Source: Opitutaceae bacterium
Lineage (GTDB): Bacteria > Verrucomicrobiota > Verrucomicrobiia > Opitutales > Coraliomargaritaceae
Direction of reading: 5' to 3'
Assembly: GCA_009886465.1 (NCBI GenBank)
Contig: QXZH01000087.1
Span: 1 to 48,192 of the forward strand
Length of the DNA: 48,192 nt
Shown piece after piece: positions 1 to 20,581 of this stretch. Every line of letters begins with the position of its first letter. Positions within the stretch are counted from its first letter, which is position 1. A program made the translations under genes and the position numbers. The notes under the pieces are model-generated. The model was given only the letters and a program-made list of their open reading frames with translations. It was not told the origin of the DNA and made no database searches.

Positions 1-35
1 GCAAGGCCGTCGCATAGGGCAGTAGCCAGCTCGCA

Positions 36-221
36 TCATGCGTCTCTAATATATTCGGCAAAGAAGTCACCCACATGCCAGGCGGCATGAATATTAGGCA
101 CATCACGACACCCATCATGTAGCGGCGGTTTTGGAGACTCAGTTGCATAAGCGTTCAGCGGTATACGCGGCGACCTGCCAATAGCAAGAAAGGTCATCCC
201 TATTTTAATAATAGTGAACAT
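36..221 (-). CDS. Possible short secreted or remnant protein, unrecognised
   Basis: A 61-codon open frame. The N-terminus (MFTIIKIGMTFLAIG) is weakly hydrophobic, and the rest is polar with two Cys/His-containing stretches. I recognise no family. An AAGG element lies about 8 bases upstream of the ATG, which is weak support for translation. It runs divergently from the Y-family polymerase, with about 50 bp between the two starts. It could be a real small gene, a decayed fragment or chance; the window edge hides its downstream context. Confidence 0.2.
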   Translation of the reverse strand: MFTIIKIGMTFLAIGRSPRIPLNAYATESPKPPLHDGCRDVPNIHAAWHVGDFFAEYIRDA

Positions 222-271
222 AATTATACCTTTTTATTGCGTTCGGTTGACCACTAGTACCCTTTGGTTGA

Positions 272-1558
272 ATGTCCCTCCGCTACTTATTTATAGATTT
301 CGACAGCTTCTACGCCTCAGTCGAGCAGCAGTTCCAACCCGAGCTGCGAGGCCGGCCTGTGGGCATCGTGCCTTCTCTTGGCGTAGAAACCACCTGCTGT
401 ATTGCGGCGAGTTATGAGGCTAAAGCCTACGGCGTTAAAACTGGGACTGGGGTCCGTGAAGCGCGCTACCTCTGCCCCGGGATCGTCTTCGTAGAGGCGG
501 GGCACTCGAACTATGTCCGCGTGCATGAGCGAATAAAGAAACTGGTCCACGAGATCATCTATGTGGATGCAGTGCTTTCGATCGATGAAATGTATGGTCG
601 CTTGCCGCAGCACTGGCAACCGCTGGAGGTGGCGCGCGCTAAAGCAATGGAGGTCAAGACGGCTCTGGCAGCTGGGATCGGTGAGTACATTCGCGCCTCC
701 ATCGGGCTCGCGCCGAACCGCTTTCTTGCCAAGCTAGCGAGTAAGCTGGAAAAGCCAAACGGACTGACCACGATGGACTTCGAAGAAATCCCAGAGAAGC
801 TCTACCACTTCAAGCTGAGCGACATCACAGGGATCGGGCAGCGTATCGAACAGCGGCTGTATACTGCGCGGATCATGGATATGGAAGCGCTTTGCATGGC
901 CAGCCGGCGTAAGCTTCATCGTATCTGGGGTGGGATCGAAGGCGACCGAATGTGGTATGCGCTCCGCGGCGTCGAGGTGCCAGCGGTGGAGACCACTCGT
1001 CGCAGTATCGGGCACTCGCATGTCTTGCCCCCACACTTGCGAACCTTCCACGGCGGGCACGCCACGCTTCACCGCATGCTGCAAAAGGCCTGCCTACGAC
1101 TGCGGGCGATGGATTATTTCACCGGGCATCTCTCGGTCGGGGTCAAATTCGGCTTCGAGCTACGGTGGGGGGCAGAGACACATTGCTTCCCGACGCAGGA
1201 CAGCGTAGTGCTAGGCAAATTACTGAATCAAATTTGGGCGGCGCACCCAGGGGATGCCCCCGAGCCGACGAAGGTCAGTATTACGCTTTCCCGGCTAGAG
1301 CACATCGCTGTGCATACGCCCTCGCTCTTTGCAGAGGACAATCAGCCACGCCGGATGAAACTCCAACACGCCATGGATGCAGTCAATAAGCGCTTCGGCG
1401 GCCGCACGCTCTACTACGCCGACGCGATGGAAGCTCAACGCAGTCGCGACGCGGCCCCGATGCGCATCGCCTTCAATCACATTCCCGAGCTAGAACTGGA
1501 GCGCGACCAAAATCTAGACAAAAAGCCTCCGATCCCTAGAGACCGGAGGCTTTCGTAA
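272..1558 (+). CDS. Y-family DNA polymerase (DinB/UmuC-like translesion polymerase)
   Basis: A translesion polymerase that copies past damaged bases with low fidelity. The first catalytic motif FIDFDSFYASVEQ is at residues 7-19, and the second acidic motif SIDEMYG is near residues 104-110, so the metal-binding aspartates and glutamate are present and the enzyme is probably active. This separates it from catalytically dead ImuB. The palm motif ASIGLAPNRFLAKLASK (about residues 142-158) and the helix-hairpin-helix DITGIGQRI (about 188-196) are typical of DinB/UmuC, followed by a little-finger domain. The length of 428 fits UmuC/DinB. The residue after SIDE is Met rather than the usual Ala/Val. 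No partner gene (umuD, imuA, dnaE2) is visible. I did not recognise a LexA box upstream. The last 12 or so codons lie within a hairpin. Confidence 0.85.
   Translation: MSLRYLFIDFDSFYASVEQQFQPELRGRPVGIVPSLGVETTCCIAASYEAKAYGVKTGTGVREARYLCPGIVFVEAGHSNYVRVHERIKKLVHEIIYVDAVLSIDEMYGRLPQHWQPLEVARAKAMEVKTALAAGIGEYIRASIGLAPNRFLAKLASKLEKPNGLTTMDFEEIPEKLYHFKLSDITGIGQRIEQRLYTARIMDMEALCMASRRKLHRIWGGIEGDRMWYALRGVEVPAVETTRRSIGHSHVLPPHLRTFHGGHATLHRMLQKACLRLRAMDYFTGHLSVGVKFGFELRWGAETHCFPTQDSVVLGKLLNQIWAAHPGDAPEPTKVSITLSRLEHIAVHTPSLFAEDNQPRRMKLQHAMDAVNKRFGGRTLYYADAMEAQRSRDAAPMRIAFNHIPELELERDQNLDKKPPIPRDRRLS
1522..1553 (-). terminator. Rho-independent terminator, best oriented on the minus strand
   Basis: A perfect 10-bp inverted repeat (AAAGCCTCCG / CGGAGGCTTT) surrounds a 12-nt loop. 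On the minus strand the stem runs into TTTTTGTCTAG, a fair U-tract. On the plus strand only TTTCG follows, so termination of the polymerase transcript would be weaker. The hairpin lies inside the 3' end of the polymerase gene, so it encodes the final residues. No recognised minus-strand gene precedes it, which hints at an uncharacterised minus-strand transcript from 1560-1800. Confidence 0.6.
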
Positions 1559-1724
1559 AAGTTGACGCCAGCTACTTCGCGACTGGAAGCTCGGACGGTT
1601 GAATTGCAGCTTTCTGCACGACTCCTTAGGTTTTTTCTTTGCTGGCGGGAGCCATGCCCTCCACGTAGTAACTTGATGCACCCAAGCAAACGTCACCAAG
1701 AGTAATGACTAATTTCGCTATACC

Positions 1725-1758
1725 CGTCACATTTGAGTCGCATTGCTGAAACGCAAGC
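1725..1758 (+). promoter_or_regulatory. Pho-box-like 11-bp direct repeats upstream of the TonB operon
   Basis: GTCACA at 1726-1731 is followed exactly 11 bp later by GTCGCA at 1737-1742, and a weaker third copy (GAAACG) starts at 1748. Heptamer direct repeats at 11-bp spacing are the known form of PhoB/PhoP-type boxes. The site ends about 60 bp before the DUF3450 start, a reasonable activator position. The remaining 1559-1724 stretch has no recognised gene. The family assignment is an inference and binding is unproven. Confidence 0.4.
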
Positions 1759-1814
1759 TTAACAATCAGACACTTTTACTTGAAAAAGCTTTCTGATATC
1801 TGTGGTAGTTAAAT

Positions 1815-2576
1815 ATGAAAATACAACTTTGTTCACTCCTAACAATCGGCTGCTCGCTAATTATTGTTGGCCTAAACGCTCAAAATCAAGTCGCGGAAAC
1901 CCGTGAGGTATTAGACCAGTGGGTGGAAACCCGCCAGATCATCTCGGAGGAAAAAGCCAGTTGGAAGGTCGAGGAGTCCATTCTCGGCGACACAGTGCAG
2001 CTGCTCAGCAGCGAGCTCCATCGGCTCAGTGAAGCGCTCACTGATCTAGAGTCCTCAGCCACTGCAGCCGACGAAGAGCGTAGCACACTTGCCGACGAGA
2101 AGGAGAAGCTAACCGCCGCATCTGCCGTGGTTGAAGCCAACATCGGCGCGCTTGAAAGCCAATTGAAGCGTGCGCTCAAGAAGCTACCGGAGCCCTTGAT
2201 CGAAAAGATCAAGCCACTGATCCGCCGCCTGCCGGAAGACCCGAGCGACACAGACCTTTCATTAGGTGAGCGTGTGCAAAACATCGTCGGCATTCTCAGC
2301 CAAGCCGACAAGTTTAACACCACCATCACGCAGACCAACGAGTCCCGTAAGATCGAGGGTGGCAAGACCGTCGAAGTCCGCACCCTCTACTGGGGCCTCG
2401 CAATGGCCTACTATGTGGATGCTTCCGGCCAATACGCTGGCATCGGCGTTCCTGGCCCTGACGGCTGGGAGTGGCCCCGCGTGGACGCTGCCGGTGCAGA
2501 AATCAAGCAACTCATCGACGTCTACGAAGGCTCCGAAGACATCAGCTTCGTAAACGTCCCCGCATATATTAAATAA
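1815..2576 (+). CDS. DUF3450 family protein, periplasmic part of a TonB energising operon
   Basis: First gene of a six-gene operon. The product has a signal peptide (residues 1-23, ending near LNAQ) and then a long coiled coil of heptad-like Glu/Leu/Ala repeats to about residue 120. A conserved C-terminal part contains TLYWGLAMAYYVD (about residues 192-204) and GPDGWEW, typical of DUF3450. DUF3450 genes usually sit in front of TtpC-like ExbB, ExbB, ExbD, TonB and TPR genes, exactly as here. The biochemical role is not established; a periplasmic accessory of the TonB motor is the usual inference. The start is chosen for the signal peptide; only a weak GGTAG-like ribosome site precedes it. The next gene begins 25 bp downstream. 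Confidence 0.85.
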   Translation: MKIQLCSLLTIGCSLIIVGLNAQNQVAETREVLDQWVETRQIISEEKASWKVEESILGDTVQLLSSELHRLSEALTDLESSATAADEERSTLADEKEKLTAASAVVEANIGALESQLKRALKKLPEPLIEKIKPLIRRLPEDPSDTDLSLGERVQNIVGILSQADKFNTTITQTNESRKIEGGKTVEVRTLYWGLAMAYYVDASGQYAGIGVPGPDGWEWPRVDAAGAEIKQLIDVYEGSEDISFVNVPAYIK

Positions 2577-2601
2577 CTGAGCGCCTAAGCCTTCACTGAT
2601 C

Positions 2602-4008
2602 ATGCAACGCACAATTAAAACCCTACTCGGCACTGCCGCACTGCTCGGACTCGCGACATTCGCCCAAGCACAGACTTTAAACTCGGCAAGCGAACAAGCC
2701 GAACGCGATCTCAAATCCGCACTTACAGAGCTCTCCGAAACACGGGGCACAATAGCCGCGGAGAAGATTCCTCTTATTCGAGAAGTCTCCGCGCTGGAAG
2801 ACGATGTGCGCCAGAAGTCGGATGAGCTCAATCGCCTGCGCCGTCTGCGAGACAACAGCGACCTAGGGCTGAATCGCCTGCGCGAACAAGTTAAAGCAAT
2901 CGACGCACAAAACGAATATGCAGCTGGTCTATTGGACGAATTTGTCCGCTCCTTCGAAACACGTATCGACTACAGCGAGGTGCAACTCTACTCCGAGGCC
3001 GCCGAAGAAGCCCGCCTCGCGATCGATGATCCTAACCTGACTCAAGCAGAACGTTTTAGTAAACAGATCGATGTCATTGGAGTTGCTCTGAACCGACTTG
3101 AGCAACTTGCCGGCGGTTACACTTTTAAGGGCAAAGCTCTAGCCCCGAACGGTGATATCGAAGACGGCACCTACGCCGCCTTCGGCCCAACTGTTTACTT
3201 TGCCTCTGGTGAATCTGACTTAGCCGGTATCACTTTCACCAAGCTCAATGCAGCCGAGGCCGCCATCGCGATTCCCGGCGAGGGCTACTCTGCTGGCATT
3301 CGCGAGTTCATTAGTCAGGGCGAAGGCAGCATCCCCATCGATCCGACCCTCGGAAAGGCTCTTAAGATTGAAGAAAGTAAGGACACCGTCGCTGAGCATA
3401 TCGCTCAAGGTGGCGTCGTAGGATATGTCATTATCGGCCTCGGCCTACTTTGTATGCTACTAGCAGTCTTCAAATTGAATGAGGTTGTTGGCTTCAAGAC
3501 GCCATCCACAGAAGAGGTTCAGAAAGTGCTGCAGCAGATCGAGGCAGGCGATAAGGCCAAGGCTCTCTCCGTCGCGAGCGAGATCAGTGGCGCAGGTGGC
3601 GACATCCTACGCAAGGGCATCGAGAATATCGACGAGAAGCGCGGCACGCTCGAAGAAATTCTTTACGAAAAGATCCTTGCGGTTCGCCCCAAGCTGGAAC
3701 GCTTCCTCCCTTTCATGGCACTCACCGCTGCCGCCGCACCACTCCTTGGACTACTCGGAACCGTCACCGGTATGATTAACACCTTCAAGCTGATCACCGT
3801 CTTTGGCACAGGTGACGCTAGCAACCTTGCCTCGGGCATCTCTCAAGCACTGGTCACCACCGAGCTTGGTCTGATCGTAGCGATCCCGTCGCTCATCATC
3901 CACGGACTCCTCTCGCGTATGGCTCGCCAAAAGCTCGGCGACCTCGAGCAAATCGCGGTTGGCTTTATCAACGGCGTAGTCGGTGCCCGTAATAAGGATG
4001 GCGCTTAA
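2602..4008 (+). CDS. TtpC-like large MotA/TolQ/ExbB proton-channel protein
   Basis: An inner-membrane protein of the TonB motor. It has a cleavable signal (residues 1-24, ending AQAQ) and a periplasmic coiled-coil region of about 240 residues. A first membrane helix lies near 273-293 ([17 protein letters not shown]), followed by a cytoplasmic loop and two helices near 369-391 ([17 protein letters not shown]) and 414-436. The last two carry the ExbB/TolQ channel signature. Ordinary ExbB proteins are about 200-240 residues, so the 270-residue periplasmic extension marks the TtpC type known from Vibrio TonB2 systems, where it is needed for TonB2-dependent uptake. A second, short ExbB is encoded 18 bp downstream, so both subunit types are made together. 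Confidence 0.9.
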
Positions 4009-4026
4009 TCCTCGCGAAAGCAGACA

Positions 4027-4611
4027 ATGGTAGAAGAAATCATCAGTATTTTAGATAGCGGCGGATGGGTCATGTATCCACTGGCCCTATTAGCGCTCTT
4101 GATTTATACCAACGGCATTGAGTTAGTCATCTTTCTTAGCAAGGGTAATATTCAGTTGGGTCGTGATACCGAATGGCTTCAATGGGTCTATAGCCCTGGA
4201 AGCGCCAAGGGCCGCGCTGGCGAAATCATCCGCTACACACAGGAAAACGTAAGCGCATCCAAGCATGTCCGCAACCGCTTCGAAGAAGTGCGCCAGTCCA
4301 TCCTGCACAACGTGGAGCGCAGAGTGATCTTTCTCAATACACTGGTAGCAGCCGCACCTCTAATGGGCTTGCTAGGGACTGTCATCGGCATGCTCGCGAC
4401 TTTCTCCGGCATCGCCCGTCAAGGCGGCGGTGATACCGTCGATGTGGTGGCCTCTGGGATCTCCGAGGCGCTCATCACCACCCAGACCGGTCTGGTCATC
4501 GCGCTGCCCGGCATCTTCCTCGTGCTAGTCATCCGCAATCGTATCCACTCGATCGAAGCTGCACTCGCCAGGATCGAATCACTCAGCCTGACAAAGCTTC
4601 AATTCGATTAG
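4027..4611 (+). CDS. exbB: ExbB-type biopolymer transport protein
   Basis: The short, canonical ExbB of the operon at 194 residues. A first helix lies near residues 13-35. The pair of channel helices lies near 103-126 ([19 protein letters not shown]) and 146-171 ([18 protein letters not shown]). It forms the proton channel with ExbD that drives TonB. The GLLGT.IGML and TTxxGL motifs are the family hallmarks and match those of the preceding TtpC-like gene. It follows that gene by 18 bp and precedes exbD by 31 bp, so it is very likely co-transcribed. Confidence 0.93.
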
Positions 4612-4642
4612 TCATCAATCATTACTAATTAGTCATTTTAAC

Positions 4643-5041
<399 letters not shown>

Positions 5042-5063
5042 CTGCTTCCGCATCTCGCCAAAA

Positions 5064-5720
5064 ATGTCCAAGCCGTATAATACGCCAAAATATAGAGGCC
5101 GCACAAAAGTCACCGGCTCTGTCATCGGCATTATTATCAGCGGACTCCTCTTTTTGGCGATCCCGTTGACTCAAATCTTTAACGACTTCGATAAAAACCC
5201 AGAGCAAATCGAGACGATCAACGTCGCGCCGCCGCCCCCACCTCCTCCACCCGAAGATCCGCCCGAGCCACCCCCACCTGAAGAGGAAGAGCCCCCTCCG
5301 GAGCTCAATACACCGCCGCCCCCCATTTCCTTGGAGCAGCTCGATATGGCACTCAACCCTGGCACAGGTGGCTCTATGGCAGGCGACTTTGCATTGCCAA
5401 CTCTTGACCTAGGCAGCAGCGACCTCGGTGGCTTGGAAATCTTCGAGCTGGGTGATGTGGATTCACCTCCGCAACCTCGCACAAAAATCGAGTTCAGTTA
5501 TCCTACCTCCGCGAAGCGTAAGGGTATTACTGGCGTGGTTAAAGTAGAGTATATTGTCAATCAGAACGGTCGAGTCGACAACATTACAATCGTCGAAAGC
5601 CCTGACCGCAGTCTCTCAAAAGCCACTGAAGATGTTCTTCGACGTGCACGCTTCGAACCCGCAAGCAAGGGTGGCACCGCAGTTAAAGTCCGCATGCGCG
5701 CCGCTATCCCGTATAGTTAG
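5064..5720 (+). CDS. tonB: TonB energy-transducing protein
   Basis: The N-terminus has a single membrane anchor (about residues 17-37, GSVIGIIISGLLFLAIPL). A proline/glutamate-rich periplasm-spanning segment (residues 54-90) follows, then a linker. The C-terminal TonB domain (about residues 140-218) begins FSYPTSAKRKGITGVVKVEY and ends near VRMRAAIPY. The YP..A...G..G.V.V.Y pattern is the family signature. It transmits energy from ExbB/ExbD to outer-membrane receptors, most obviously the receptor at 12.1-15.5 kb. The Pro-rich segment is short (about 35 residues), as in TonB2-type proteins. Confidence 0.93.
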   Translation: MSKPYNTPKYRGRTKVTGSVIGIIISGLLFLAIPLTQIFNDFDKNPEQIETINVAPPPPPPPPEDPPEPPPPEEEEPPPELNTPPPPISLEQLDMALNPGTGGSMAGDFALPTLDLGSSDLGGLEIFELGDVDSPPQPRTKIEFSYPTSAKRKGITGVVKVEYIVNQNGRVDNITIVESPDRSLSKATEDVLRRARFEPASKGGTAVKVRMRAAIPYS

Positions 5721-5785
5721 AATAGCTCACAAATTTCCAATTATCCACTTCCATTCCCGCATCACAGATCCCCTATTACTTTAAA

Positions 5786-7141
5786 ATGAACAAGATCACC
5801 GCACTCCTCATCACCGCATGCATCACAGCCAGTTCGCTTGCCTCACAGCCAAGCAATAGCAGTCAACTCTGGAGCGACCCGACATTCCAAAAAGAGTTCC
5901 TTGGTAGCTATGGCTTCTTGGCCGGTGCCGAGCCACCGATCTCCGCCGAGGAAAAAGAAGCACTGCGCAACCTGATCGACCTTATCAAAGCTAGTCCAGA
6001 AGCTGCCATTCAAGCACTCGAACCACAGATCACCAAGGACAGTAGTGCCGCCTTTGACTTCATTCTGGCCAACTTATACTTTCAGGGTGGGGATCTAGCG
6101 AAGGCCGAGCAATACTACGGTAATGCTGTGGTCAAGCACCCTGATTTTCGACGTGCTTATAAGAACCTCGGACTCGTTCAGGTGCAAAAGGGAGACTTCG
6201 ATAAAGCAATTAAGACCATTTCCAAAGCCATGGAACTCGGCGAAGTCGACGGGCGTTCGTATGGACTTCTTGGATACGGCTACTTAACTCAGCAAAAATA
6301 CTACCCAGCCGAAGCCGCTTATCGCCAAGCGATCCTTATGCAGCCGGAAACCAGCGACTGGAAAGTTGGCCTCGCGCGCTGTTTGTTGGAAACAAATCGC
6401 TATGCCGATGCGATCGCACTCTTCGACACACTCCTTCAGGAGGAGCCCAACAACACCGACTACTGGCTACTTCAGGGCAATGCCTACCTAGGCAAAGACG
6501 AATCGATCGCCGCAGCCAAGAACTTAGAAGTTGTCCGGCGCATGGGCTCCGCCGACCTTAGTACACTTACCCTACTCGGCGACATTTACATGAACAACGC
6601 CTTGCCCGACCTCGCTCTCGATGCCTACCAAGCTGCCACCGAGATGGCTAGCGCTGGGGACAGTAAGCCTCTCGTCCGCGCAGCAGAGCTCCTCACCCGC
6701 ACCGGCAGCTTCGATCAGTCCAAACTAATGATCGCCAGTATCCGTGAGAAACTGAGTGATACAATGGACGAAGATACGGATCTGAAACTGCTCACAATTG
6801 AGGCCAAAGTCGCTCGCGCCGAAGGCGACGACGATTCCGCAGTGGAGCTGCTGACCAAGATCGTCGAGCGTGACTCACTCAATGGAGAGGCCATTATCGA
6901 GCTAGCTAACTTCTTTGCCGATCAAGATGACATGGCCAAAGCCATCAACCGCTACGAGCAAGCTGAGAAGATTGAAGCCTTCGAGCGCGAAGCCCTTGTC
7001 GCACACGCTCAAGCACGCGTCCGAAATGGCGAGTATAAAAAAGCATTACCCCTACTACGCCGCGCCCTACAGATTGAGTCAGACACGAATTTAGAAGACT
7101 ACACCGACCGCGTAGAAAGAGCGGCCCGAAGTCAAAGCTAA
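5786..7141 (+). CDS. TPR-repeat periplasmic protein of the TonB operon
   Basis: A signal peptide (residues 1-19, ending SLAS) precedes at least eight tetratricopeptide-like helix pairs. Examples are [20 protein letters not shown] near residues 93-112 and further units of the form [22 protein letters not shown] protein closing the DUF3450-TtpC-ExbB-ExbD-TonB operon is a known arrangement; in Vibrio the equivalent (TtpB/TPR) contributes to TonB2 function. It probably scaffolds partner proteins in the periplasm. The start is 65 bp after tonB, so it probably shares the transcript. No enzymatic motif is visible. Confidence 0.88.
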
Positions 7142-7162
7142 CTCTAAAGCTTCATTGTTTCT

Positions 7163-7182
7163 GTTCGATAAGGATATCGAAC
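7163..7182 (+). terminator. Perfect hairpin after the TonB operon, possible weak terminator
   Basis: GTTCGATA and TATCGAAC form an 8-bp perfect stem with an AGGA tetraloop, 22 bp after the TPR stop codon. Only a scattered T-stretch (CTCTTTGG) follows, so it is not a strong intrinsic terminator. It may instead stabilise the 3' end of the operon mRNA. Confidence 0.35.
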
Positions 7183-7272
7183 CCTAGCTCTTTGGTGTGT
7201 ATAAAGCTTGCTGCTTCAAAAGCTCGGCAGAAAGCACACACTCACTCAAATAGTAAAGTAGCTATAAAGGAG

Positions 7273-7323
7273 TGTCACACAATTGCCTCGTATCTGTAAT
7301 ACCGGATTCACGCATCTGTCACT
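7273..7323 (+). promoter_or_regulatory. Pho-box-like heptamers at exact 22-bp spacing
   Basis: TGTCACA (7273), TGTAATA (7295) and TGTCACT (7317) are spaced exactly 22 bp apart, twice the 11-bp Pho-box period. The last two are preceded by ATC (ATCTGTAAT, ATCTGTCAC), as in classic Pho boxes. The block ends about 70 bp before the GTG start of the LolA-like gene, and an AT-rich -10-like stretch (TATATTTTAT) lies between them. The string GTCACACAATTG also occurs in the box upstream of the PiT-like gene. Regulation is an inference. Confidence 0.4.
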
Positions 7324-7395
7324 CGACACCGAATTTTCACCAACGTAACCGATACGTTCATATCTATATTTTATTTTTTAGGTTATGATGATTGT

Positions 7396-8151
7396 GTGAT
7401 AATTATTCGCCAACTAATCGGTCTTTCGCTTTTACTTTCCGCCCTGCACTCCGTGTCAGCGGCCGTAAACGACCCCAGAGTGAATGAAATCCTAAGCAAG
7501 CACCTGGAAGCGATGGGTGGGCTTACCAACTGGAACCAAGTAGAGAGCATACAACTCAACGGAACCGTCGAGCGAGACGGTAAAACTGTCAATGTCGTCA
7601 TCATAAAAAAGCGCCCCAATCAGATCCGGGCTACCGTCACCGTGCCAGTGCCAGGGAAGGAGGGTGAGGCGATACAGCTAATCCGCGCCCATGACGGCAA
7701 GAGCGCCTGGACCGCTAATCGCTTGGCGGGTGCCCCAGAAATGCAAAAGGAAGAGCTCCCCCCCGAAGCCGCCGACCAACTACTGGCCGACGCAGGCGTC
7801 ATGCCGCGTCTAATTAAGTTCTGGCGCGAAGGTGCTAAGCTTGAGCTATTAAATTCAAAAACTATCGATGGCACTCGCTGCTATGTGGTCGAAGCTAGCC
7901 CTGAGGGCACGCTCAACAAATATACGTTCTATATTTCTGATGAAACTTACTTGGTCACGCATTATGAAAATGACCATCCGACGAATGGACGCACCATCAC
8001 TCAACTGAACGATTACAATTCTGATCATGGCATTCTCATACCAATGGTCAATGTGATCGAAAACGAGCAAACCGGTCGTTCTGTGATGACCACAAGCTCG
8101 ATAAAGTTCGGCGTGGGCATTTATGAGGATTATTTTGCCGACAAAAGGTAA
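7396..8151 (+). CDS. LolA-like periplasmic (lipoprotein-sorting-fold) protein
   Basis: The start is GTG, with no in-frame ATG upstream. A signal peptide (residues 1-23, ending SVSAA) is followed by a region with the LolA/LppX/VioE-like antiparallel beta pattern. Near residues 37-60 the segment LEAMGGLTNWNQVESIQLNG leads into short beta strands and repeated KRPNQIRATV-type and DGKSAWTAN-type strands. The same order of motifs occurs in the incomplete gene at 47387-48192, so the two are paralogues. LolA-fold proteins bind lipids or hydrophobic ligands in the periplasm; the substrate here is unknown. It follows the Pho-box-like block and is monocistronic (187 bp to the next gene). Confidence 0.65.
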   Translation: MIIIRQLIGLSLLLSALHSVSAAVNDPRVNEILSKHLEAMGGLTNWNQVESIQLNGTVERDGKTVNVVIIKKRPNQIRATVTVPVPGKEGEAIQLIRAHDGKSAWTANRLAGAPEMQKEELPPEAADQLLADAGVMPRLIKFWREGAKLELLNSKTIDGTRCYVVEASPEGTLNKYTFYISDETYLVTHYENDHPTNGRTITQLNDYNSDHGILIPMVNVIENEQTGRSVMTTSSIKFGVGIYEDYFADKR

Positions 8152-8338
8152 ATCGAGAGGGCAGTCTAGCTTTTCTAACAGTAAGAATTGGCCAATTTCG
8201 ATGCACACTTGGCATCATCTGCGGATAAACAACTCGCACTGCGTTTTATTGTATGCGCTATCCGAACAAATAAGTTGCGCCAGTATAGCCAGAGATCTTG
8301 AATAAAAGTAGCCTTCTATGACTTAACCAACAAACCCA

Positions 8339-9004
8339 ATGAAACCCTGGCTAATATTATATTGCTTACTATACGTGGCGCTTATTGCACCCGCATCGGG
8401 GCGCAGTAACTTAAATCAGAATTATACTCTCAAGGGTATATGCAATATAGATGGCACGTGGATGCTAAGCATAAAAGACAATCCTAACAGACAGCACTTC
8501 TGGCTAAAAGTCGGGCAACGTTTCGGCGACTTACATTTGCATACCTTCAACCCTGATAGCTCTACTGCAACACTGCTTTATCAAGAGGAAGAATTCACTT
8601 TAGCACTTGCTGAGAAGGATAACTCGCCGATCATGGTGATTAGTTCAAGATCACTAACATTCGAACAGATAGAACAGATTAAAAAGAAGGTTGAAAGTCA
8701 CCGGCAGGGACTAAATCAAGTGCTCCTCGCAACGCCTAAATCCGGCCCACGTAGCCTGGAAACACGGAAGAAAATTGAACAAGACCTAGAGAACGCTGTC
8801 GCGAATTATAGACAACGGCTAATGTCTCAGGCGGAGGATAACTTCATTACTAATGAAGTCAGCACGGACGCTAAAATCAATGCAGCCACCGTGGGCACTA
8901 GTAGCAAAGAAGTCAGTATTATTGGAGTGAAGAGACGTAACCGCGTAAATTCAAGAATTTGGTCATCGGATCATATTAAAAAGCATGGCATGCCCGAGGA
9001 GTGA
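8339..9004 (+). CDS. Secreted protein of unknown function, possibly GspC/PilP-like strand domain
   Basis: A signal peptide (residues 1-21, ending APASG) precedes a small beta-rich region (about residues 30-95). Its pattern TLKGICNIDGTWMLSIKD, FWLKVGQRFGDLHL and then EEEFTLAL resembles the homology-region domain of GspC/PilP pilus-system proteins, though no motif is decisive. A charged helical segment (about residues 105-165) and a basic, low-complexity C-terminus follow. I recognise no family with confidence. It is transcribed toward the next gene, with 7 bp between the two stop codons. Confidence 0.6.
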   Translation: MKPWLILYCLLYVALIAPASGRSNLNQNYTLKGICNIDGTWMLSIKDNPNRQHFWLKVGQRFGDLHLHTFNPDSSTATLLYQEEEFTLALAEKDNSPIMVISSRSLTFEQIEQIKKKVESHRQGLNQVLLATPKSGPRSLETRKKIEQDLENAVANYRQRLMSQAEDNFITNEVSTDAKINAATVGTSSKEVSIIGVKRRNRVNSRIWSSDHIKKHGMPEE

Positions 9005-9011
9005 AATTCTT

Positions 9012-9767
9012 TTACTTTAGTAGCCAATCTATGATTTCCTCCTGTCCATGTAATTGACAGATCATTCTACCAGATGAGGCGACTTCCACTAACTGTGGAA
9101 GTTTCAAGTTTGGATTGATGTGATCGAGTGACTTAGAATAGCTTCTAGATAAATATCCAGGCATGCACTGAATACTTGGGCTCAGATCTTCAGCCAGCTC
9201 CTGGATTGCTTCCTTATTACCTGGCACATCCATATAGACGAAAATGGTTTCTTCACGCTCTGAATCATTCAGATTTTTATAAAATTCGTTAGCAGCAGCG
9301 ACAACTGAACGCGTCGCTTCCATCTCGGCATTACCATACAACAATATCCATCGCTTGCAGCTGTAAACCATCCCCCCATGCACAGGATCCTGCCATGAGG
9401 ACTCTCCGGACATTACCCTATTTGCTAGGAAAAAAGACATGCGCGGAACGATTCTATAGTTTGGGTCTTCCGTGTTCTTTGCTCTTTCAATCTCAGAGCT
9501 GATACTTGTTGCATTCAGTGACAGCGTGAGAAGGCCTTTCCGCGGGACATTTACTCGAATAGTCTCTGCATCGATCGGCCGGATGACTACAACCCTTTCG
9601 CCCTTTTTAAGTGCTCCCAGTTCCGTTTCAATTTCCTTCTCAATTATTGCGTGAAAAGGAATAAAATCTTCATCCTGAATTAGATTTCCGCAATCTTCAG
9701 CAACCAGATTACTGAGTGGGAAACAGGCTATAATGAGAATCGAGAGAACTACATTATGGATGGTCAT
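9012..9767 (-). CDS. Secreted protein with a thioredoxin-like C-terminal region, function unknown
   Basis: The open frame can begin at GTG 9785, but that codon sits inside the AAAGGTGAT ribosome-binding-like sequence, so ATG 9767 (251 residues) is more likely. A signal peptide is followed by a domain of unknown type. The C-terminal half (from RWILLYGNAEMEATRSVV) has the strand-helix-strand order of a thioredoxin fold, ending in LPQLVEVASSGRMICQLHG, where LPQLV could be the cis-proline loop. No CxxC motif is present, so it is not a normal disulfide oxidoreductase. It is convergent with the 8339 gene. Confidence 0.55.
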   Translation of the reverse strand: MTIHNVVLSILIIACFPLSNLVAEDCGNLIQDEDFIPFHAIIEKEIETELGALKKGERVVVIRPIDAETIRVNVPRKGLLTLSLNATSISSEIERAKNTEDPNYRIVPRMSFFLANRVMSGESSWQDPVHGGMVYSCKRWILLYGNAEMEATRSVVAAANEFYKNLNDSEREETIFVYMDVPGNKEAIQELAEDLSPSIQCMPGYLSRSYSKSLDHINPNLKLPQLVEVASSGRMICQLHGQEEIIDWLLK

Positions 9768-9862
9768 TATTCTTATGTGTATCACCTTTATTTGATTTGA
9801 TGATAGTAATGTAAAGTCTAACTGATTTACAGCACATCAATTTAGTGATGTATTTATTAAAA

Positions 9863-9890
9863 AAGGCACCTCCCATGTGGAAGGTGCCTT
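9863..9890 (-). terminator. Intrinsic terminator after the PEP-CTERM gene
   Basis: AAGGCACC and GGTGCCTT form an 8-bp stem (extended by a T-A pair and an inner CCA/TGG), followed on the minus strand by TTTTTTAATAAA. It lies 20 bp past the PEP-CTERM stop codon and is a good rho-independent terminator for the beta-helix/PEP-CTERM transcript. Confidence 0.85.
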
Positions 9891-9909
9891 GAACTTAAGA
9901 TGAATTCGT

Positions 9910-10515
9910 CTACTTGCGACGACGATTTGCAGCAAATGCGAGTGCAATTACTCCAAAGATCGCGGCGAAAGAAGATGGCTCTGGGACCGCAGTGCCTGTG
10001 ATAGCAAAGTTATCGTAAGCAGTGCTTGCCCCAGTGTTGAGCACGTAACTAGCAGAAGCATTGCCAGCAAATGAGCTCAAATCGACTGAAGCGGATGCGA
10101 AGTCAGAACCAGAATCAGCAGCATATGTGAGAGTAAGGCTACTGTAGCCACTCGCGTCGAAGCTGAAGGTCATAGTTTCGCCGCCAGCAATAGACTGGAA
10201 GCCAGCCTCGGCAGCCGACACACCATCGCTAAACTGATCGTATCCAGTAGTTGGGTCTACGAAAGCGAATGTGTTGCCGACAACAGCAGAGTTGAATCCC
10301 AAGTCGATCCCGAATTCAGCAGCGCTAAAGAAAGGAGGTCCGCCTGCAGGCGAGTGGCTCCATGAAAGAGTCGCAGAGCCTGAGAGGTCGCCCCAGTTCG
10401 CAGTGGCGTTGGCAGCAGTGGCTCCGACATTATCGAAGTCCCAACCAGCAACGAAAGACTGTGCATTCGCTACTGATGCAGCAACCAGCGCTGTAAGTAT
10501 GAGTGTTTTTTTCAT
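9910..10515 (-). CDS. PEP-CTERM sorting-domain surface protein
   Basis: A signal peptide (MKKTLILTALVAASVANAQ) precedes about 155 residues rich in Gly, Ser, Ala and Asp, typical of exported matrix proteins. The C-terminus is a textbook PEP-CTERM sorting signal: VPEPSS at residues 177-182, a hydrophobic helix, then NRRRK. Such proteins are processed by exosortase EpsH-type enzymes and exported. It lies 35 bp after the beta-helix gene in the same direction and ahead of a strong terminator, so the two form an operon and the protein may be a surface partner of the TonB receptor system. Confidence 0.92.
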   Translation of the reverse strand: MKKTLILTALVAASVANAQSFVAGWDFDNVGATAANATANWGDLSGSATLSWSHSPAGGPPFFSAAEFGIDLGFNSAVVGNTFAFVDPTTGYDQFSDGVSAAEAGFQSIAGGETMTFSFDASGYSSLTLTYAADSGSDFASASVDLSSFAGNASASYVLNTGASTAYDNFAITGTAVPEPSSFAAIFGVIALAFAANRRRK

Positions 10516-10550
10516 TATTATTTCCTATTTTAGTAGTTACAAAAACTGTA

Positions 10551-12008
10551 TTAGTCAGCGAAGTAACCAAGTTGTGAAGGCACGGTCCATCCATCAGTCC
10601 AAGGAGTGGTAGCTGGTGAGAAAGCACCCATGTAGTTAACCGCATCGAAGTAGAGTGCGATGTATGGCTCAAGCTTAGTTGAGTCAGTTGCATCGTTACC
10701 TGCGAAAGCAAGTGGCTTGAGGTAGACACCGCCGACTTCGTAGCGTTTCTTTGAAGAACCAGTGGAACCCATTACTGCGTAGTTAGCACCACCAAGGTAG
10801 GGATTCGAGAAGTAGTTATCGGAACCCAAGATAGCATCTGCATCGGCACTATCACCATGAACAGCTGCTGTCTCAACACTAGCGTTGTCGACATCTAAGT
10901 GCCAAACGTTACTACGTATCTGAAGGTTACCAGCATCTGCCATGTCACCGCATGTTGAATTAAGGTCAAGAGAAGTGCCTTGGCCAGAAGCGAGAATAAT
11001 CGAGTTGAAGAGTGAACCTCCAGCATTTTTGTCGTAGTCGATTTGACCACCTTTTCCACCGATAACAGTCATGTTATAGATAACAGGAATGCCATATGGC
11101 TTTGCACCAGCCTGGTCATCACCATCGAATTCACCGCCTTTATCGCCATCACTGCCATTGTCAGCTTGAACGACTGCCCAGAACTGGCCAAGACCGCTGA
11201 ACCCTTGGTCGTAATCGAAGGCATCATCGTTGTTATACGCAGAAAGGAGATACTTCGAGTTGACTGTGCCACCGAACCACTCGAATCCGTCATCTTGACC
11301 TGCGATAACTTCGACGTATTCGAGAACAGTGCCATCACCAACACCACCCATTGTAAGGCCGTTAATTTCATTGGCTGCAGACAGATTGAATCCACCATTA
11401 CGGATAGATACGTAACGAATCACACCACTGCTGTCGTGTGGACGGTCACCGCCATAAACACCGCGAAGGTCAGGGCTTGCATCCGATGGGTTTGGCTCAA
11501 CAAGACCCTCGATGAAGTCGGTGCCAGGGGTGAGCAATGAATTATCAGCTGACTGATCGTTATTGATTGGAGCATTACCCAAGATGATCACACCGCCCCA
11601 AAGACCAGTAACGAGTGTATCACCTGATAGTGGCACTGTTGGAGCTGTTTTTGGAGCTGGATCTGATTCGAAAGTGAAGATGATAGGATCAGCAGGTGTT
11701 CCAGTTGCATTGATCTGGCCAGTGCGCGTGATAGCCAATGTGCCAGGCTCTTGGGTCACGTTGTTGGAACCATCCTTGAGGCCAATAACACCTCGGATTA
11801 CGGTACCAGCAGGGATGTTGATGGTAGCATCAGAAACATACACAACTTCTGTCAGGAGATACTCTTTAGAGCTGTCCAAAGTAACAGTAGAAGCGATCGG
11901 ATCTGAAATCTCATAGAGACCAGCAGAATTTGCCACGCTAGAAACGCCAGCGTATGCAGAGCAGCCAATGGTAGCTGCTAGTGTTGCGATTGAAGTAATT
12001 TTTTTCAT
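10551..12008 (-). CDS. Secreted beta-helix-like protein paired with a TonB receptor
   Basis: The signal peptide ends near GCSAYA (residues 1-20). The mature part has repeated beta-strand turns typical of right-handed parallel beta-helix proteins, with the motif GLWGGVIILGNAPIN (about residues 136-150), NGGF/NGLT/GVGDG-type turns and several Asp/Gly-rich loops (DNGSDGDKGGEFDGDDQ) that could bind calcium. Proteins with this GLWGG.I.LG motif are common next to TonB receptors with carboxypeptidase-regulatory-like domains in Bacteroidetes and Verrucomicrobia. The function is unproven; a surface-exposed ligand binder is likely. It follows the receptor gene after 102 bp that hold their own box-like repeats. 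Confidence 0.7.
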   Translation of the reverse strand: MKKITSIATLAATIGCSAYAGVSSVANSAGLYEISDPIASTVTLDSSKEYLLTEVVYVSDATINIPAGTVIRGVIGLKDGSNNVTQEPGTLAITRTGQINATGTPADPIIFTFESDPAPKTAPTVPLSGDTLVTGLWGGVIILGNAPINNDQSADNSLLTPGTDFIEGLVEPNPSDASPDLRGVYGGDRPHDSSGVIRYVSIRNGGFNLSAANEINGLTMGGVGDGTVLEYVEVIAGQDDGFEWFGGTVNSKYLLSAYNNDDAFDYDQGFSGLGQFWAVVQADNGSDGDKGGEFDGDDQAGAKPYGIPVIYNMTVIGGKGGQIDYDKNAGGSLFNSIILASGQGTSLDLNSTCGDMADAGNLQIRSNVWHLDVDNASVETAAVHGDSADADAILGSDNYFSNPYLGGANYAVMGSTGSSKKRYEVGGVYLKPLAFAGNDATDSTKLEPYIALYFDAVNYMGAFSPATTPWTDGWTVPSQLGYFAD

Positions 12009-12077
12009 TTAATTTATGTTTTGTTAGAGTTGAGCAGATCGAGAAATGACCCGCAATATTAACTTAAGATAAGAGTG

Positions 12078-12106
12078 TGTACATCGGATGTCTTAATTGT
12101 TACAAA
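12078..12106 (-). promoter_or_regulatory. Pho-box-like repeats between the receptor and the beta-helix gene
   Basis: Read on the plus strand, TGTACAT (12078), TGTCTTA (12089) and TTACAAA (12100) are spaced 11 bp apart. The core AATTGTTACAA is shared exactly with the site upstream of the PiT-like gene. It lies 70-100 bp upstream of the beta-helix start. This is the most degenerate of the sites listed here. Confidence 0.3.
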
Positions 12107-12110
12107 GTAG

Positions 12111-15100
12111 TTAAAACTCATAATTAATTCCCAGCGACATACTTTGCCCTACTTTATATGTATCTCGGTCTACATCGTCACCCTCAATGTCATAGTAAGT
12201 CCCTCTTTCAGAATCTGTTATGTTCTTAATTGAAAAGCTTACCTTCAAATTCTCTTTGATTGTTTTCGATGCCGTCAAATCCAGAGATGTGTAGGCATTA
12301 CCATAAAAATCGTATGAGTCGACAAACGAGACCCCTTGCAGGACTTCGCTAATATGATATGCAATCAATGAAACTCGAAGACCCCAATCGGGGTTATCGT
12401 AAGTTAAATCTGCATTCGCAATATACTCAGGCTGATTTGTAAGCGCCCTGGTTTCTTCGATTGGGCGCCCAGCTAAGGTCTTCGCAGCAATTTCAATTGG
12501 GAATCGATCCACCTCGCCCTCAATATAAGTAAAATTGCCTCCAAGCGAGAAGTCGCGTAACGAATCATGTAGAAACCCCAATGATTTACGGCCTTCGACT
12601 TCTATTCCGGTAAGTGTCGCTTCATTTGGGTTGTTATACCAACTGTAGAGAGCAGCATCCAAGTTATCCGAAAACGTCAGGATTTGGTAATTATTGTAGT
12701 CAAGTGGATCGGGATCGACCAATTCGGCTTTAAATGTGTCAGCACCTATTCCGTTTAGTTTTTCTATTCGATTATCTACAACTTTATGGAACAGTGTGAC
12801 TCCAAACGAATCGCCGCTTTCATTGAACCAACTAAATCCAATGTCGAAATTTTCTACATTCGATGGGCTAAGGTTCGGATTCCCTACGTCGATATCAGAG
12901 CCGGAGAACACCGACGACGCATAAGGAGATACCTCACGGGCGGAAGGTAGAGCCAATGTTTTAGAATACGCTAACTTAAGGCTCATTCGATCAGTTGGTT
13001 GGTAGATAAAAGTCAGACCGGGAAGCCAACGATCATCCTCATATCCTCCAGCAGTAGGTAAGTCTTTCAAAGGGTTATTACTCCCCGCGCCCCTCAACTG
13101 CAATTCGCCATTAACCTGAACGTCGGCGGAATTCTTCTCATGTCGATAGCCACCGATTACTCGAAATTTTTCAAACAGCTGCTGCTCGACCATGAAATAG
13201 CGACCCTCCTGCTCAGTCTCGAGTGAAACATCAGCCGCAATAGCATATCCAGCCGCATCAAGCTCATTAAAGTTTTCAAGCGGTGCGTCGGGATCATCGG
13301 AGGCATCCACAGTAGTATCTCCCGCGGCAGATAAATCGTCGCCAAGCAACGAGATATACTCGTCAAAGACAGTGCGATCACCTTGACTCGTTAATGCCCC
13401 GAACTTAATCTTCGTATCGAAGCCGTCCGCAAATGTTTCCTTAAAGCTGAAATCGATTCTCTGATTGTCTCTCTCCTCTTCAATTTCACGCCAAATTACA
13501 AATGACGGGCTTGCAGAACCCGCAGCGGTAGAATCCTGCGCTAGTGTCAGATCACCATTATCCAAAACAATTGTCCTCGTTTGAACGTAACCAGGTTCCT
13601 CTTGAGTGGCTGTATCTCTTCCAACTGCCCACTCGATCTCAAGCTCATCGAAAACTCCATAGGAAGGCAGATCAAAGCGGTGGCCGCCTGCAACTTGGTC
13701 ACTAATCAGACGACGTTCCGTATAGCGCAGAGATTCAGCAATCTCCGTATCCAAAGAATCTGGAACTCCAGAATCCGAGGAGAACGGGAACTCATTATAA
13801 ACGTCACCGACGAGACGGACGTTCTCATTCTCGCTTTGGCGCAGATCTAAACGGCTCAAGCTAAATTGATGATCCTCACCTATCTCCAAGCCAAAACCTA
13901 CGAGCCACGAAAGCACACTGGTCGCTGTCGCCTCAGTCCTTAATTGATTTCTATAGCCAATAGCTACGTCAGGATCGACGAAGTTTTCCGGGCTTAGTGT
14001 CGCGGTCCCAGATGTTTCGGTTGCACTACGGAAGTAATCAGCTTCCTCAATCATACGGAACTTACGGCTATAATTAAGTCCCCCAAAGTAGCCCGCTCGA
14101 ATACGATCATTCACATCGTGGGCGTTTCCAAAACTGAATTTAACGCCGTAATCGGGACCGGGAGCATCGCCATAATTATGGAATTCACGCCCAATTGAAT
14201 TGGTTATTGCAACTGCTTCTGCGACAGCGGCATCTTTCTCAGCCTGCGTAATCGTACCCGTAATCGGAAAGGGTAATGTGTTCACAGGCTTAGTTAGATC
14301 TTCTGGGAATTCTTTAGCCCCATCAGGCAATCCTCGATCCTCAGCACCCATAGCAAACTGATCCATAGAGCCGCCTCGATCATTGACCAAAAACTTATCA
14401 TTACCAGTTGCAATCGAATGAAACCCGACACTCGTCGACACATTCATGAAGAACTCGTCTGGTAAGGACTTGAGCTTTAGATCGATCGCGCCAGTCGCTG
14501 TAGCTGATTGGTCTGGCGTGAAAGTTTTACTAACAGCGATCGATTCAAACAAAGAGGACGGAAAAAGATCCAATTGCACCGCAAGCCTATCAGGGTCAGG
14601 GCTCGCAATAGGCAGGCCATTCATAGTCGTCCAAACATAGCGGTCTCCAAGCCCACGGATAACCGCATACTTGCCTCCAACCACAGAGACTCCCGAAACA
14701 CGCTTAACCGCATCACCGATATCACTAGCTGCAAACTTCGAGAAGTCCTCCGAGCTCATGACGCTCAAGATAGAATCCGAATTCATCGTAAGCTCTAATT
14801 GAAGCATGATATTATTGGCCTCTTCAGCCGTCACCGTGAAGTCCTGGAGCTCATAGACCTCGTCGGACATATCCGCTGGGCGTGGGGGAAGCCCAAAGGG
14901 GAAGACACTGACTTCACCGCCCACGATCGCGTAGTCGGTGACGTTGGCTTCGATGTAGCCAGTTTTAACAAAGCTGACAGTGTATTCGCCGGCAGGGGCG
15001 GGTCCGATGGAATAGCGGCCTTCGCTATCGGTGACTGTTGCGATATTAGTATCTTCGAGTAGAATAGCCACACCACTGAGTGGCTGGCCGCTCTCCTTAT

Positions 15101-15452
15101 CGATGATTTGGCCGGAGATGATGCCTTCACCAGCCGCTAGATTAAGTTCAAATTCTGTGGCCGCATCGGTCGCTTCGATGACGGACTGGACGAGGAATTC
15201 ATCGGCAGCGTCTTCGGGGCTCTGATTGTCCTCCGCTTCGCCTTTAGATAAATCTACAGTCAGCCCGGAATCTGCGGACTCGTTCGCCCCTTGAAGCTCT
15301 TGTTTCCGCTCGGAACGCTCGGCTGCCTTGATAGCCTCGACCTGATCTTTATATTCATCGGGAACGACAATTTTAATCGCGCTTAGTGGCGTAACTGTGA
15401 GTGCAGAGGCAGATGCAATCAGCAAGGCGGTTAACTTAAAAGATGTTTTCAT
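12111..15452 (-). CDS. TonB-dependent outer-membrane receptor with CarboxypepD_reg-like domain
   Basis: A signal peptide (residues 1-25) is followed by an unusual charged, helical linker (26-105). A carboxypeptidase-regulatory-like beta domain spans about 110-190 (IISGQIIDKESGQPLSGVAI). A TonB box-like DFTVTA is at 204-209, and the plug domain (about 228-330) carries SDIGDAVKRVSGVSV and YAVIRGLGDRYVWTTMNGLP. A long barrel region follows to the last residue, which is Phe (LGINYEF), as usual for outer-membrane barrels. At 1113 residues it belongs to the large receptors of Bacteroidetes/Verrucomicrobia. It imports a substrate too large or too scarce for porins, powered by the TonB operon at 1.8-7.1 kb. 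The substrate cannot be read from sequence; the PiT-like neighbour and box-like sites suggest phosphorus compounds. Confidence 0.93.
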   Translation of the reverse strand: MKTSFKLTALLIASASALTVTPLSAIKIVVPDEYKDQVEAIKAAERSERKQELQGANESADSGLTVDLSKGEAEDNQSPEDAADEFLVQSVIEATDAATEFELNLAAGEGIISGQIIDKESGQPLSGVAILLEDTNIATVTDSEGRYSIGPAPAGEYTVSFVKTGYIEANVTDYAIVGGEVSVFPFGLPPRPADMSDEVYELQDFTVTAEEANNIMLQLELTMNSDSILSVMSSEDFSKFAASDIGDAVKRVSGVSVVGGKYAVIRGLGDRYVWTTMNGLPIASPDPDRLAVQLDLFPSSLFESIAVSKTFTPDQSATATGAIDLKLKSLPDEFFMNVSTSVGFHSIATGNDKFLVNDRGGSMDQFAMGAEDRGLPDGAKEFPEDLTKPVNTLPFPITGTITQAEKDAAVAEAVAITNSIGREFHNYGDAPGPDYGVKFSFGNAHDVNDRIRAGYFGGLNYSRKFRMIEEADYFRSATETSGTATLSPENFVDPDVAIGYRNQLRTEATATSVLSWLVGFGLEIGEDHQFSLSRLDLRQSENENVRLVGDVYNEFPFSSDSGVPDSLDTEIAESLRYTERRLISDQVAGGHRFDLPSYGVFDELEIEWAVGRDTATQEEPGYVQTRTIVLDNGDLTLAQDSTAAGSASPSFVIWREIEEERDNQRIDFSFKETFADGFDTKIKFGALTSQGDRTVFDEYISLLGDDLSAAGDTTVDASDDPDAPLENFNELDAAGYAIAADVSLETEQEGRYFMVEQQLFEKFRVIGGYRHEKNSADVQVNGELQLRGAGSNNPLKDLPTAGGYEDDRWLPGLTFIYQPTDRMSLKLAYSKTLALPSAREVSPYASSVFSGSDIDVGNPNLSPSNVENFDIGFSWFNESGDSFGVTLFHKVVDNRIEKLNGIGADTFKAELVDPDPLDYNNYQILTFSDNLDAALYSWYNNPNEATLTGIEVEGRKSLGFLHDSLRDFSLGGNFTYIEGEVDRFPIEIAAKTLAGRPIEETRALTNQPEYIANADLTYDNPDWGLRVSLIAYHISEVLQGVSFVDSYDFYGNAYTSLDLTASKTIKENLKVSFSIKNITDSERGTYYDIEGDDVDRDTYKVGQSMSLGINYEF

Positions 15453-15565
15453 TGTTTGTCGCTTGGAACAATTAACCCGCCATATTTTATTGGGGCAGGA
15501 TAAACACGCACTCTTCTGCTCACCTCATTTAGGGGCACAATATCAAAGTGGTTGCACAATGAGAA

Positions 15566-15605
15566 AATCACAGCGCCGTAACGTGAGCGTAACGATAATG
15601 ACACA
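15566..15605 (-). promoter_or_regulatory. Tetrad of 11-bp-spaced repeats upstream of the TonB receptor
   Basis: On the minus strand, TGTGTCA, CGTTACG, CGTTACG and TGTGATT follow each other at exact 11-bp steps (15605 down to 15566). The two central heptamers are identical. The block lies 114-153 bp upstream of the receptor start, between it and the stop of the PiT-like gene. The spacing matches PhoB-type boxes; the sequence match is partial. Confidence 0.4.
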
Positions 15606-15664
15606 TTTAAATATTTAGCCCCTGTGTATAGTAATTCTTACCTAACATGCACCCTGTTAGTAAA

Positions 15665-16810
15665 TTAAGGCATCTGAGTAGCGGTGGCTTGTGTCGCTTC
15701 TACCGATACCGGTTTCTCGTGGATCGCCTCGTTGACTGGCTTTATGAGGAGTGGCAGGAAGAGTGCCAAGACGACCGCAATACCCGAACCAAAGAAGGCT
15801 TTACCGGCATCTTTGAAGATGAGCTTAGACACTTTCTTCTTGCTGCGGTGGCGAAGCCGAAGCGCGATGCCAACCTCCCGTCCGGCCAGCAGACCGAGGA
15901 AAACCCAGGTGGTACTCATGGGCATTTTCTCGGGCCAAGGGACGTCCATCCCCATCGCTGTAAACAGCTTGGGAATATAATCGACCTTGAAAAAGAGCAG
16001 CACTAAGCCGTAGAGTAAATCGATAAAGGTGGCGGAGCGAACATCCAGTGTGTTGGTCTTACTCGTCACAACACGCTGTATCTTTCCGCCCTTCTCTTTA
16101 AACAGGTAACCTTGCAGTAAGGCCATGCCTCCGAGCGAGAGTGCCAAGCCCCACCAGGAAAGCTCGCGGGGTAGATAAACAAAAATATTAGCGAGGTCCT
16201 GAACCAGCCACATCGACCATAGAAACCCTGTCGAAAGCCACTGAAAGACTAACCACTTGGGGTGCAAAGCCTTGGCGCTGTTGCCGTCTTCCTGGTCAGC
16301 TTTGACCTTCCTCTCCAGTAGGTAGATAACCGCAAAAAACAAGATGAGTCCCAGCAGGAATGCGATGGCATAGCCAACGAGCGACTTCTCCATCATGGAT
16401 TTAAAGAGATCGACCGCGGCACCTGGAGTCTTACCCTGTTGTGCGGCAACGAGGCCTTTGAACCCTGTGAGGACGAGTAGAGATGTACTCACGGGGATGC
16501 CCATCCGGGTCAATATTACGAGGCATAGTGGCGGCAGTAAAAAGAGCCAAGTGATCATGCCGCCGATATCGTGGGGGTGTGGTATATTTTTACCCGCAGC
16601 GGACAGGCGACCGAAAGCCGGATCCCCTCCGTTGGCAAACCACCCCCAAGAAACAGTCACGACCATAATCCCGGAAATCCAAATCCAGAGAACCCACCAT
16701 GGGCGTTTGGCATTCGACGCGAGGAAAGTCCCGAGGCTCTGTATCGAGTCGTTAGCCACGATAGCATAAGCTGCCATCGCAAAGGCGATAATCATAAAAA
16801 ATTCTGCCAT
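15665..16810 (-). CDS. PiT-family-like multi-spanning membrane transporter (possible phosphate)
   Basis: A membrane protein of 381 residues with about nine hydrophobic segments. The N-terminal motif IVANDSIQSLGTFL (residues 17-30) matches the pattern GANDVANxxGT of PiT phosphate transporters. The motif MGIPVSTSLLVLTGF (about 103-117) matches PiT GLPVSTT. Both key motifs are present in the usual order. The second half lacks an obvious repeat of them, so it is a divergent PiT relative rather than a standard PitA. The likely role is proton- or sodium-coupled uptake of phosphate or a similar anion. It is transcribed toward the TonB receptor, 212 bp away, with box-like repeats upstream of both. 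Confidence 0.6.
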   Translation of the reverse strand: MAEFFMIIAFAMAAYAIVANDSIQSLGTFLASNAKRPWWVLWIWISGIMVVTVSWGWFANGGDPAFGRLSAAGKNIPHPHDIGGMITWLFLLPPLCLVILTRMGIPVSTSLLVLTGFKGLVAAQQGKTPGAAVDLFKSMMEKSLVGYAIAFLLGLILFFAVIYLLERKVKADQEDGNSAKALHPKWLVFQWLSTGFLWSMWLVQDLANIFVYLPRELSWWGLALSLGGMALLQGYLFKEKGGKIQRVVTSKTNTLDVRSATFIDLLYGLVLLFFKVDYIPKLFTAMGMDVPWPEKMPMSTTWVFLGLLAGREVGIALRLRHRSKKKVSKLIFKDAGKAFFGSGIAVVLALFLPLLIKPVNEAIHEKPVSVEATQATATQMP

Positions 16811-16868
16811 ATTAGATGTTGATGGGTTTTGTCTGTATTTTGCGATAAGCCAAGCAAAGAGAGCCCAT

Positions 16869-16890
16869 CGTCACACAATTGTTACAACAT
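16869..16890 (-). promoter_or_regulatory. Pho-box-like repeat upstream of the PiT-like gene
   Basis: GTCACA at 16870 and GTTACA at 16881 are spaced exactly 11 bp, with the linker CAATT. On the gene strand this reads TGTAACA-ATTG-TGTGACG, also an 11-bp direct repeat because the centre is near-palindromic. It lies about 60-80 bp upstream of the start codon. The sequence GTCACACAATTG recurs upstream of the LolA-like gene. Confidence 0.45.
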
Positions 16891-16953
16891 GCGAAGAGTT
16901 TCGAGACCTTTGCTGAGGGCTCGCCGATCACTCCGTGCGCTTTTTAATGCTCA

Positions 16954-20558: not shown

Positions 20559-20581
20559 GGGTAACGCTAGCCTTCAAAAAA

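Follow-up and report, generated by a model that had tools for sequence, protein, structure and literature searches.

The passage of phosphate across the outer membrane is generally ascribed to passive porins, for example PhoE or OprP. In E. coli, the Pho regulon with its PhoB-PhoR pair is marked by PhoB boxes, tandem 7-mers that recur every 11 bp in front of pstS and further phosphate genes. In Caulobacter crescentus, phosphate starvation induces the exported protein ElpS (cc0170), whose gene is a neighbor of that for the TonB receptor Cc0171 (PMC2996285). In Vibrio vulnificus, the TonB2 system has as its first gene that of the DUF3450 protein TtpB2 and includes TtpC2 and the TPR protein TtpD2 (PMC6957404). 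The window analyzed here, the whole 48,192-bp contig QXZH01000087.1 (C130 of a 143-contig, 1.84-Mb marine Opitutaceae bin), shares features with each of these systems and carries Pho-box-type heptamer arrays upstream of a TonB operon, a LolA-like gene, a beta-helix gene, a TonB-dependent receptor gene, and a PiT-like transporter gene. The five sites are very probably PhoB boxes and the genes behind them one phosphate-starvation regulon, which would include the uptake route proposed below.

The motif was derived de novo from 28 sequences upstream of pstS and porin genes in relatives, by expectation maximization (EM) with random seeds; the bin itself and the near relative G006 were left out of the training to avoid circularity. 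The relatives compared included Coraliomargarita sp. SDUM461004, AG-913-J04, and BACL24-type Opitutales; AG-913-J04 contig CACIKF010000001.1 matches G006, and the isolate name is that of a single-cell genome. The best EM model, 29 bp long, was the 11-bp tandem repeat TGTMACA-N4-TGCCACA-N4-TGWAACA. Its pitch is that of the E. coli PhoB box, whereas the half-site is TGTMACA/TGCCACA instead of CTGTCAT and often occurs in at least three units. In a scan of both strands of the window, the top four three-unit matches were the arrays upstream of the LolA-like gene, receptor, TonB operon, and beta-helix gene, and the top two-unit match was the site upstream of the PiT-like gene. The five regions ranked 1, 2, 3, 4, and 6 among 23 intergenic regions; random ranking places five within the top six with a probability of 18/100,947 (1.8e-4), a test that is not fully blind since the regions had originally been picked by similar heptamers, its independent part being the matrix from pst genes elsewhere. 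Heptamer pairs were about ten times denser in the five regions than elsewhere, both at 11-bp (6.3 versus 0.36 per kb) and at 22-bp spacing (5.1 versus 0.46 per kb), which refutes an equal density in random intergenic DNA. With an E. coli-type Pho matrix, 7 matches of at least 12 bits were obtained in the window, compared to 1.4 in shuffles. The core pattern with one mismatch was not enriched in the bin (9 matches versus 9 in a reversed control), for which reason listing the regulon genome-wide from the pattern by itself was rejected, and a comparison of the TonB promoter with E. coli found nothing.

Tandem heptamers of the type claimed in the original prediction were thus present in all five regions and non-random under an externally trained model, with some details of strand, spacing, and position revised. 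The TonB operon is preceded at 90 bp by the array CGTCACA-N4-AGTCGCA-N4-TGAAACG (1725..1753, plus strand), which scored 16.8 bits in the three-unit model (window rank 3). Ahead of the LolA-like gene, the array at 7273..7323 on the plus strand includes the highest-scoring three-unit match (7273-7301, 20.7 bits, rank 1) and a further TGTCACT at 7317; the 22-bp spacing first noted there is present and belongs to an 11-bp array that begins at 7273. The beta-helix gene is preceded by TTTAACT-N4-TGTAACA-N4-AGACATC (13.5 bits, rank 4), which occupies 12087..12115 on the minus strand, not 12078/12089 on the plus strand as first given; the E. coli-type matrix scored 15.0 there for TTTTAACTACTTTGTAAC. 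These three arrays are in sense orientation. The receptor array CGTAACG-N4-CGTAACG-N4-TGACACA (17.7 bits, rank 2) was found where predicted, 125-153 bp upstream of the gene at 15577..15605, but its best reading is on the plus strand, which makes it antisense to that gene. The predicted pair ahead of the PiT-like gene, CGTCACA-N4-TGTTACA (16869..16886, plus strand; 59-76 bp upstream; two-unit score 14.9, rank 1), was recovered as well, and it is near-palindromic, so its orientation is ambiguous. Outside the module, matches also occurred at 26476-26504 (three-unit 11.9) and 19516-19533 (two-unit 11.8), by genes with no known phosphate role.

The motif upstream of pstS and porin genes in the relatives is the window motif, and the enrichment predicted ahead of pst genes in relatives was borne out at these regions. 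Genome G001 (4.7 Mb) contains the exact core TGTMACANNNNNGYMACA just twice, once at pstS and once at the TonB operon; G004 has it at both of these places and at a third. The TonB-operon box of G001, TGTAACAAAACCGCCACAATTCCGACACC, is nearly identical to the pstS box of G007, TGTAACACATACGCCACAATTCCGAAACA. A box about 90 bp ahead of the DUF3450 start (-88 to -92) was found in G002, G006, G009, G013 (weaker than the others), G001, G004, G007, and G017. Boxed DUF3450 operons scored 13 to 19 and unboxed ones, mostly outside the module, at most 6.7; in G001 and G004 the chosen start codon cuts the array, which scores 25.1 in full. G017 has two DUF3450 operons, a boxed one in the module and an unboxed one. 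The module-linked unboxed operons were those of G005, with no convincing box, and of G012, where a site at -89 was detected by the E. coli matrix and missed by the three-unit model. The LolA-like array is kept in G006 (18.8), the PiT pair is identical in that single-cell genome, and the antisense orientation of the receptor array recurs upstream of the receptor in G001, G004, G005, G012, and G019.

Chance occurrence of an AT-rich heptamer between genes is hardly a credible explanation of the sites. Single sites are weak when taken alone, the weakest being the beta-helix site and the PiT site, with p of 0.03 and 0.016 against shuffles in the three-unit model. For the set of five, chance is refuted by the external model, the top window ranks, the 11- and 22-bp spacing, the conserved position, and the negative-control operons; single weak sites are excepted.

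Gene order placed the module among phosphate genes. In G001 and G004, the order is dinB, PiT-like gene, TonB operon, LolA-like gene, PEP-CTERM gene, beta-helix gene, receptor, porin, and pstSCAB-phoU, followed in G004 by ftsK. In G019, pst is divergent from the PiT-like, receptor, beta-helix, and PEP-CTERM genes, and in G007, G023, G030, and bin contig C26 the PiT-like gene adjoins pst. G011 has dinB, PiT-like gene, porin, and ftsK, and the window (1559-16953) has the TonB/receptor half and the PiT-like gene, without pst. By these orders, the dinB-ftsK interval is a phosphate island whose content varies. The contents observed in the window, G001 C116, G004 C11, G011 C4, and C26 were pst with porin and PiT-like gene, PiT-like gene with porin, TonB module with PiT-like gene, or everything. 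The bin is mixed: contig C26 (L070), with pst, phoU, porin, and a second PiT-like gene, has at its two ends (C26 positions 1-158 and 9320-9405) the ftsK and dinB genes that also flank the island of the window. Two organisms have thus contributed this locus to the bin, and the organism of the window may lack Pst.

An independent case was found outside the Verrucomicrobiota on the Alteromonas plasmid pBGP9, with the order phoB, phoR, pstS, a 2OG oxygenase gene, beta-helix gene, receptor, DUF3450, ExbB, ExbB, ExbD, TonB, and TPR genes. Strong boxes matching the E. coli PhoB box lie at -66 of phoB, -78 of the beta-helix gene, and -94 of DUF3450. This cluster, together with the pst synteny, is the strongest support for the proposed regulon. 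The 2OG-Fe(II) oxygenase gene between pstS and the beta-helix gene is at 7488-8279 of the locus (L264). A DUF3450 tblastn search against plasmids gave no match although plasmids carry DUF3450 genes, and it is no evidence of absence.

Adjacent genes encode PhoB and PhoR homologues in the bin, as in the relatives that were examined. The bin PhoB homologue scored 231 bits against the TIGR02154 equivalog cut-off of 296, nearly all relatives were below it too, and eight PhoB-profile matches are encoded in the bin, which leaves room for another OmpR/PhoB-family regulator, unresponsive to phosphate, as the protein bound to the heptamers. We regard this as improbable, since pstS and porin genes are preceded by similar sites and since those of Alteromonas, which neighbor a gene with the annotation phoB, match the E. 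coli PhoB box. One phosphate-responsive regulon, as originally proposed, is supported by the pst-trained motif, the synteny with pst and phoBR, and the pBGP9 boxes.

The window has the complete Ttp-type TonB set in one operon on the plus strand: DUF3450 (TtpB-like; 1815..2576; PF11932, 6.5e-35), long ExbB/TolQ-like (TtpC-like; 2602..4008; PF01618, 1.2e-28), ExbB (4027..4611; PF01618, 6.6e-24), ExbD (4643..5041; PF02472, 3e-26), TonB (5064..5720; PF03544, 3.4e-18), and a TPR protein (TtpD-like; 5786..7141; TPR families). The periplasmic LolA-like protein follows (7396..8151, plus strand; PF17131, 1.5e-7). On the minus strand lie the genes for a PEP-CTERM-anchored protein, syntenic in relatives (9910..10515; TIGR02595, 3.2e-4), the exported beta-helix-type protein (10551..12008; no Pfam match), the TonB-dependent receptor with a carboxypeptidase-regulatory-like N-terminal domain (12111..15452; PF00593, PF07715, PF13715), the divergent PiT-like transporter (15665..16810), and FtsK (16954-19521). 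The beta-helix label is a tentative reading of the repeat pattern of the sequence. Beta-helix homologues were found in Alteromonadales, Bacteroidota, and Alphaproteobacteria. In Pseudoalteromonas the gene follows the same TonB operon, and in Indioceanicola it is directly upstream of a TonB receptor and of gspC/D-type (type II secretion) genes, the arrangement of Caulobacter elpS and cc0171. By gene neighborhood, the beta-helix/receptor pair may be said to resemble the ElpS/Cc0171 pair, whose description mentions neither a dedicated TonB operon nor a PiT gene.

The PiT-like protein belongs to a distinct, widespread family of at least 523 loci. A PF01384 search of the bin gave no match, the relatives of the protein reached at most 29.6 bits against PHO4 (PF01384; cut-off 33.7), and hhalign against PHO4 proteins matched 24 columns only (17.9% probability). 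The AlphaFold model had a predicted local distance difference test score (pLDDT) of 39 with a nine-sequence alignment and 86.6 with a 27-sequence alignment. The sole significant Foldseek match of the model in the PDB was TmPiT (6l85_A; E 2.3e-4, TM 0.53), and VIA-align superposed the two with Z 19.6 (next match 5.8) and a root-mean-square deviation of 4.3 over 313 residues. The PiT-like call was thus correct at the level of the predicted fold, though below the PF01384 cut-off; a predicted PiT fold is no proof of phosphate transport. A pst gene was present within 9 kb in 7 of 80 wide PiT-like loci, and a few more had phoBR, so a PiT-like/pst linkage across all bacteria was rejected. In the distant genomes of loci L185, L201, L217, and L219, the PiT-like gene has phoB-phoR neighbors, which suggests that the family has a phosphate-related role beyond the Verrucomicrobiota as well.

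From the shared sites and the synteny, we infer that the TonB motor, surface proteins, and inner-membrane uptake may be coupled as a set. The set departs from the E. coli Pho regulon in that it includes an entire TonB motor along with a receptor and a surface protein. Under phosphate scarcity, PhoR would phosphorylate PhoB, which would bind the 11-bp tandem heptamers and turn on the six-gene TonB motor, the LolA-like protein, the ElpS-like beta-helix surface protein, the receptor, and the PiT-like carrier. Most likely, the receptor with its own motor would bring a phosphorus source, either a phosphorus-containing compound or phosphate that the surface protein has bound, through the outer membrane, and phosphate would enter the cytoplasm through the PiT-like inner-membrane carrier and, in relatives, also through Pst. 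We tentatively propose, at somewhat less than even confidence, active TonB-dependent uptake of phosphate or a phosphorus compound by the receptor, the ElpS-like capture protein, the Pho-controlled motor, and the PiT-like carrier, able to replace porin and Pst in some marine Opitutales without pst. A literature search, mostly outside subscription journals, turned up no report of TonB-dependent phosphate uptake. If the proposal is true, Verrucomicrobiota and marine Gammaproteobacteria would have an energy-driven step at the outer membrane, one that is important at extremely low phosphate levels. The ElpS/Cc0171 pair, to which no role had been assigned in 2010, would gain a testable function, and a widespread PiT-like family below the Pfam cut-off would be brought to attention.

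Several observations weigh against the phosphate regulon and its uptake route. The antisense receptor box, kept in relatives, does not fit simple PhoB activation there, and a good box is missing at one member in some relatives (PiT in G001 and G004, DUF3450 in G005). Pst and PhoU, the usual inputs of PhoR, were not found in several close relatives: PhoU and, save for one trace match in G009, PstC were missing from the search results for G002, G006, G009, G010, G011, and G013, and a pst-less Pho island is likely. Caulobacter cc0171 itself was reported to be constitutive (PMC2996285). One Pseudoalteromonas copy of the module is near siderophore genes, and the same motor architecture drives siderophore uptake under iron/Fur control in Vibrio TonB2 (PMC6957404), whereas the module here carries Pho boxes and is part of a phosphate island. 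These last two points, with the siderophore and heme receptor models among the best subfamily matches of the receptor, all far below cut-off, also speak for real PhoB boxes with a phosphorus-independent or metal cargo that is co-induced, such as iron, phosphate and iron starvation being coupled. Such a cargo is unlikely, if the least implausible of the alternatives, given the tight synteny with pst, porin, and PiT-like genes or phoBR-pstS in two phyla and the ElpS-type beta-helix/receptor pair, tied to phosphate starvation; phosphate or a phosphorus compound remains the preferred cargo.

The left and right parts of the window differ in their affinity. Window positions 6-5446 on the left are 96-98% identical to G006, and positions 16919-24667 on the right are 92% identical to G011 and 86-88% to G006, a mosaic ancestry that suggests recombination at the island. 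A remnant of a window-type TonB receptor, with stop codons, was found in G006 (C1:332028-332342; L074 ~7014-7343), where it adjoins a receptor and beta-helix pair of another type; such pairs seem to be exchanged in place. In G011, which is 99% complete, the PiT-like and porin genes (C4, L148, 9043-11426) are each split over two frames, by a frameshift or a sequencing error.

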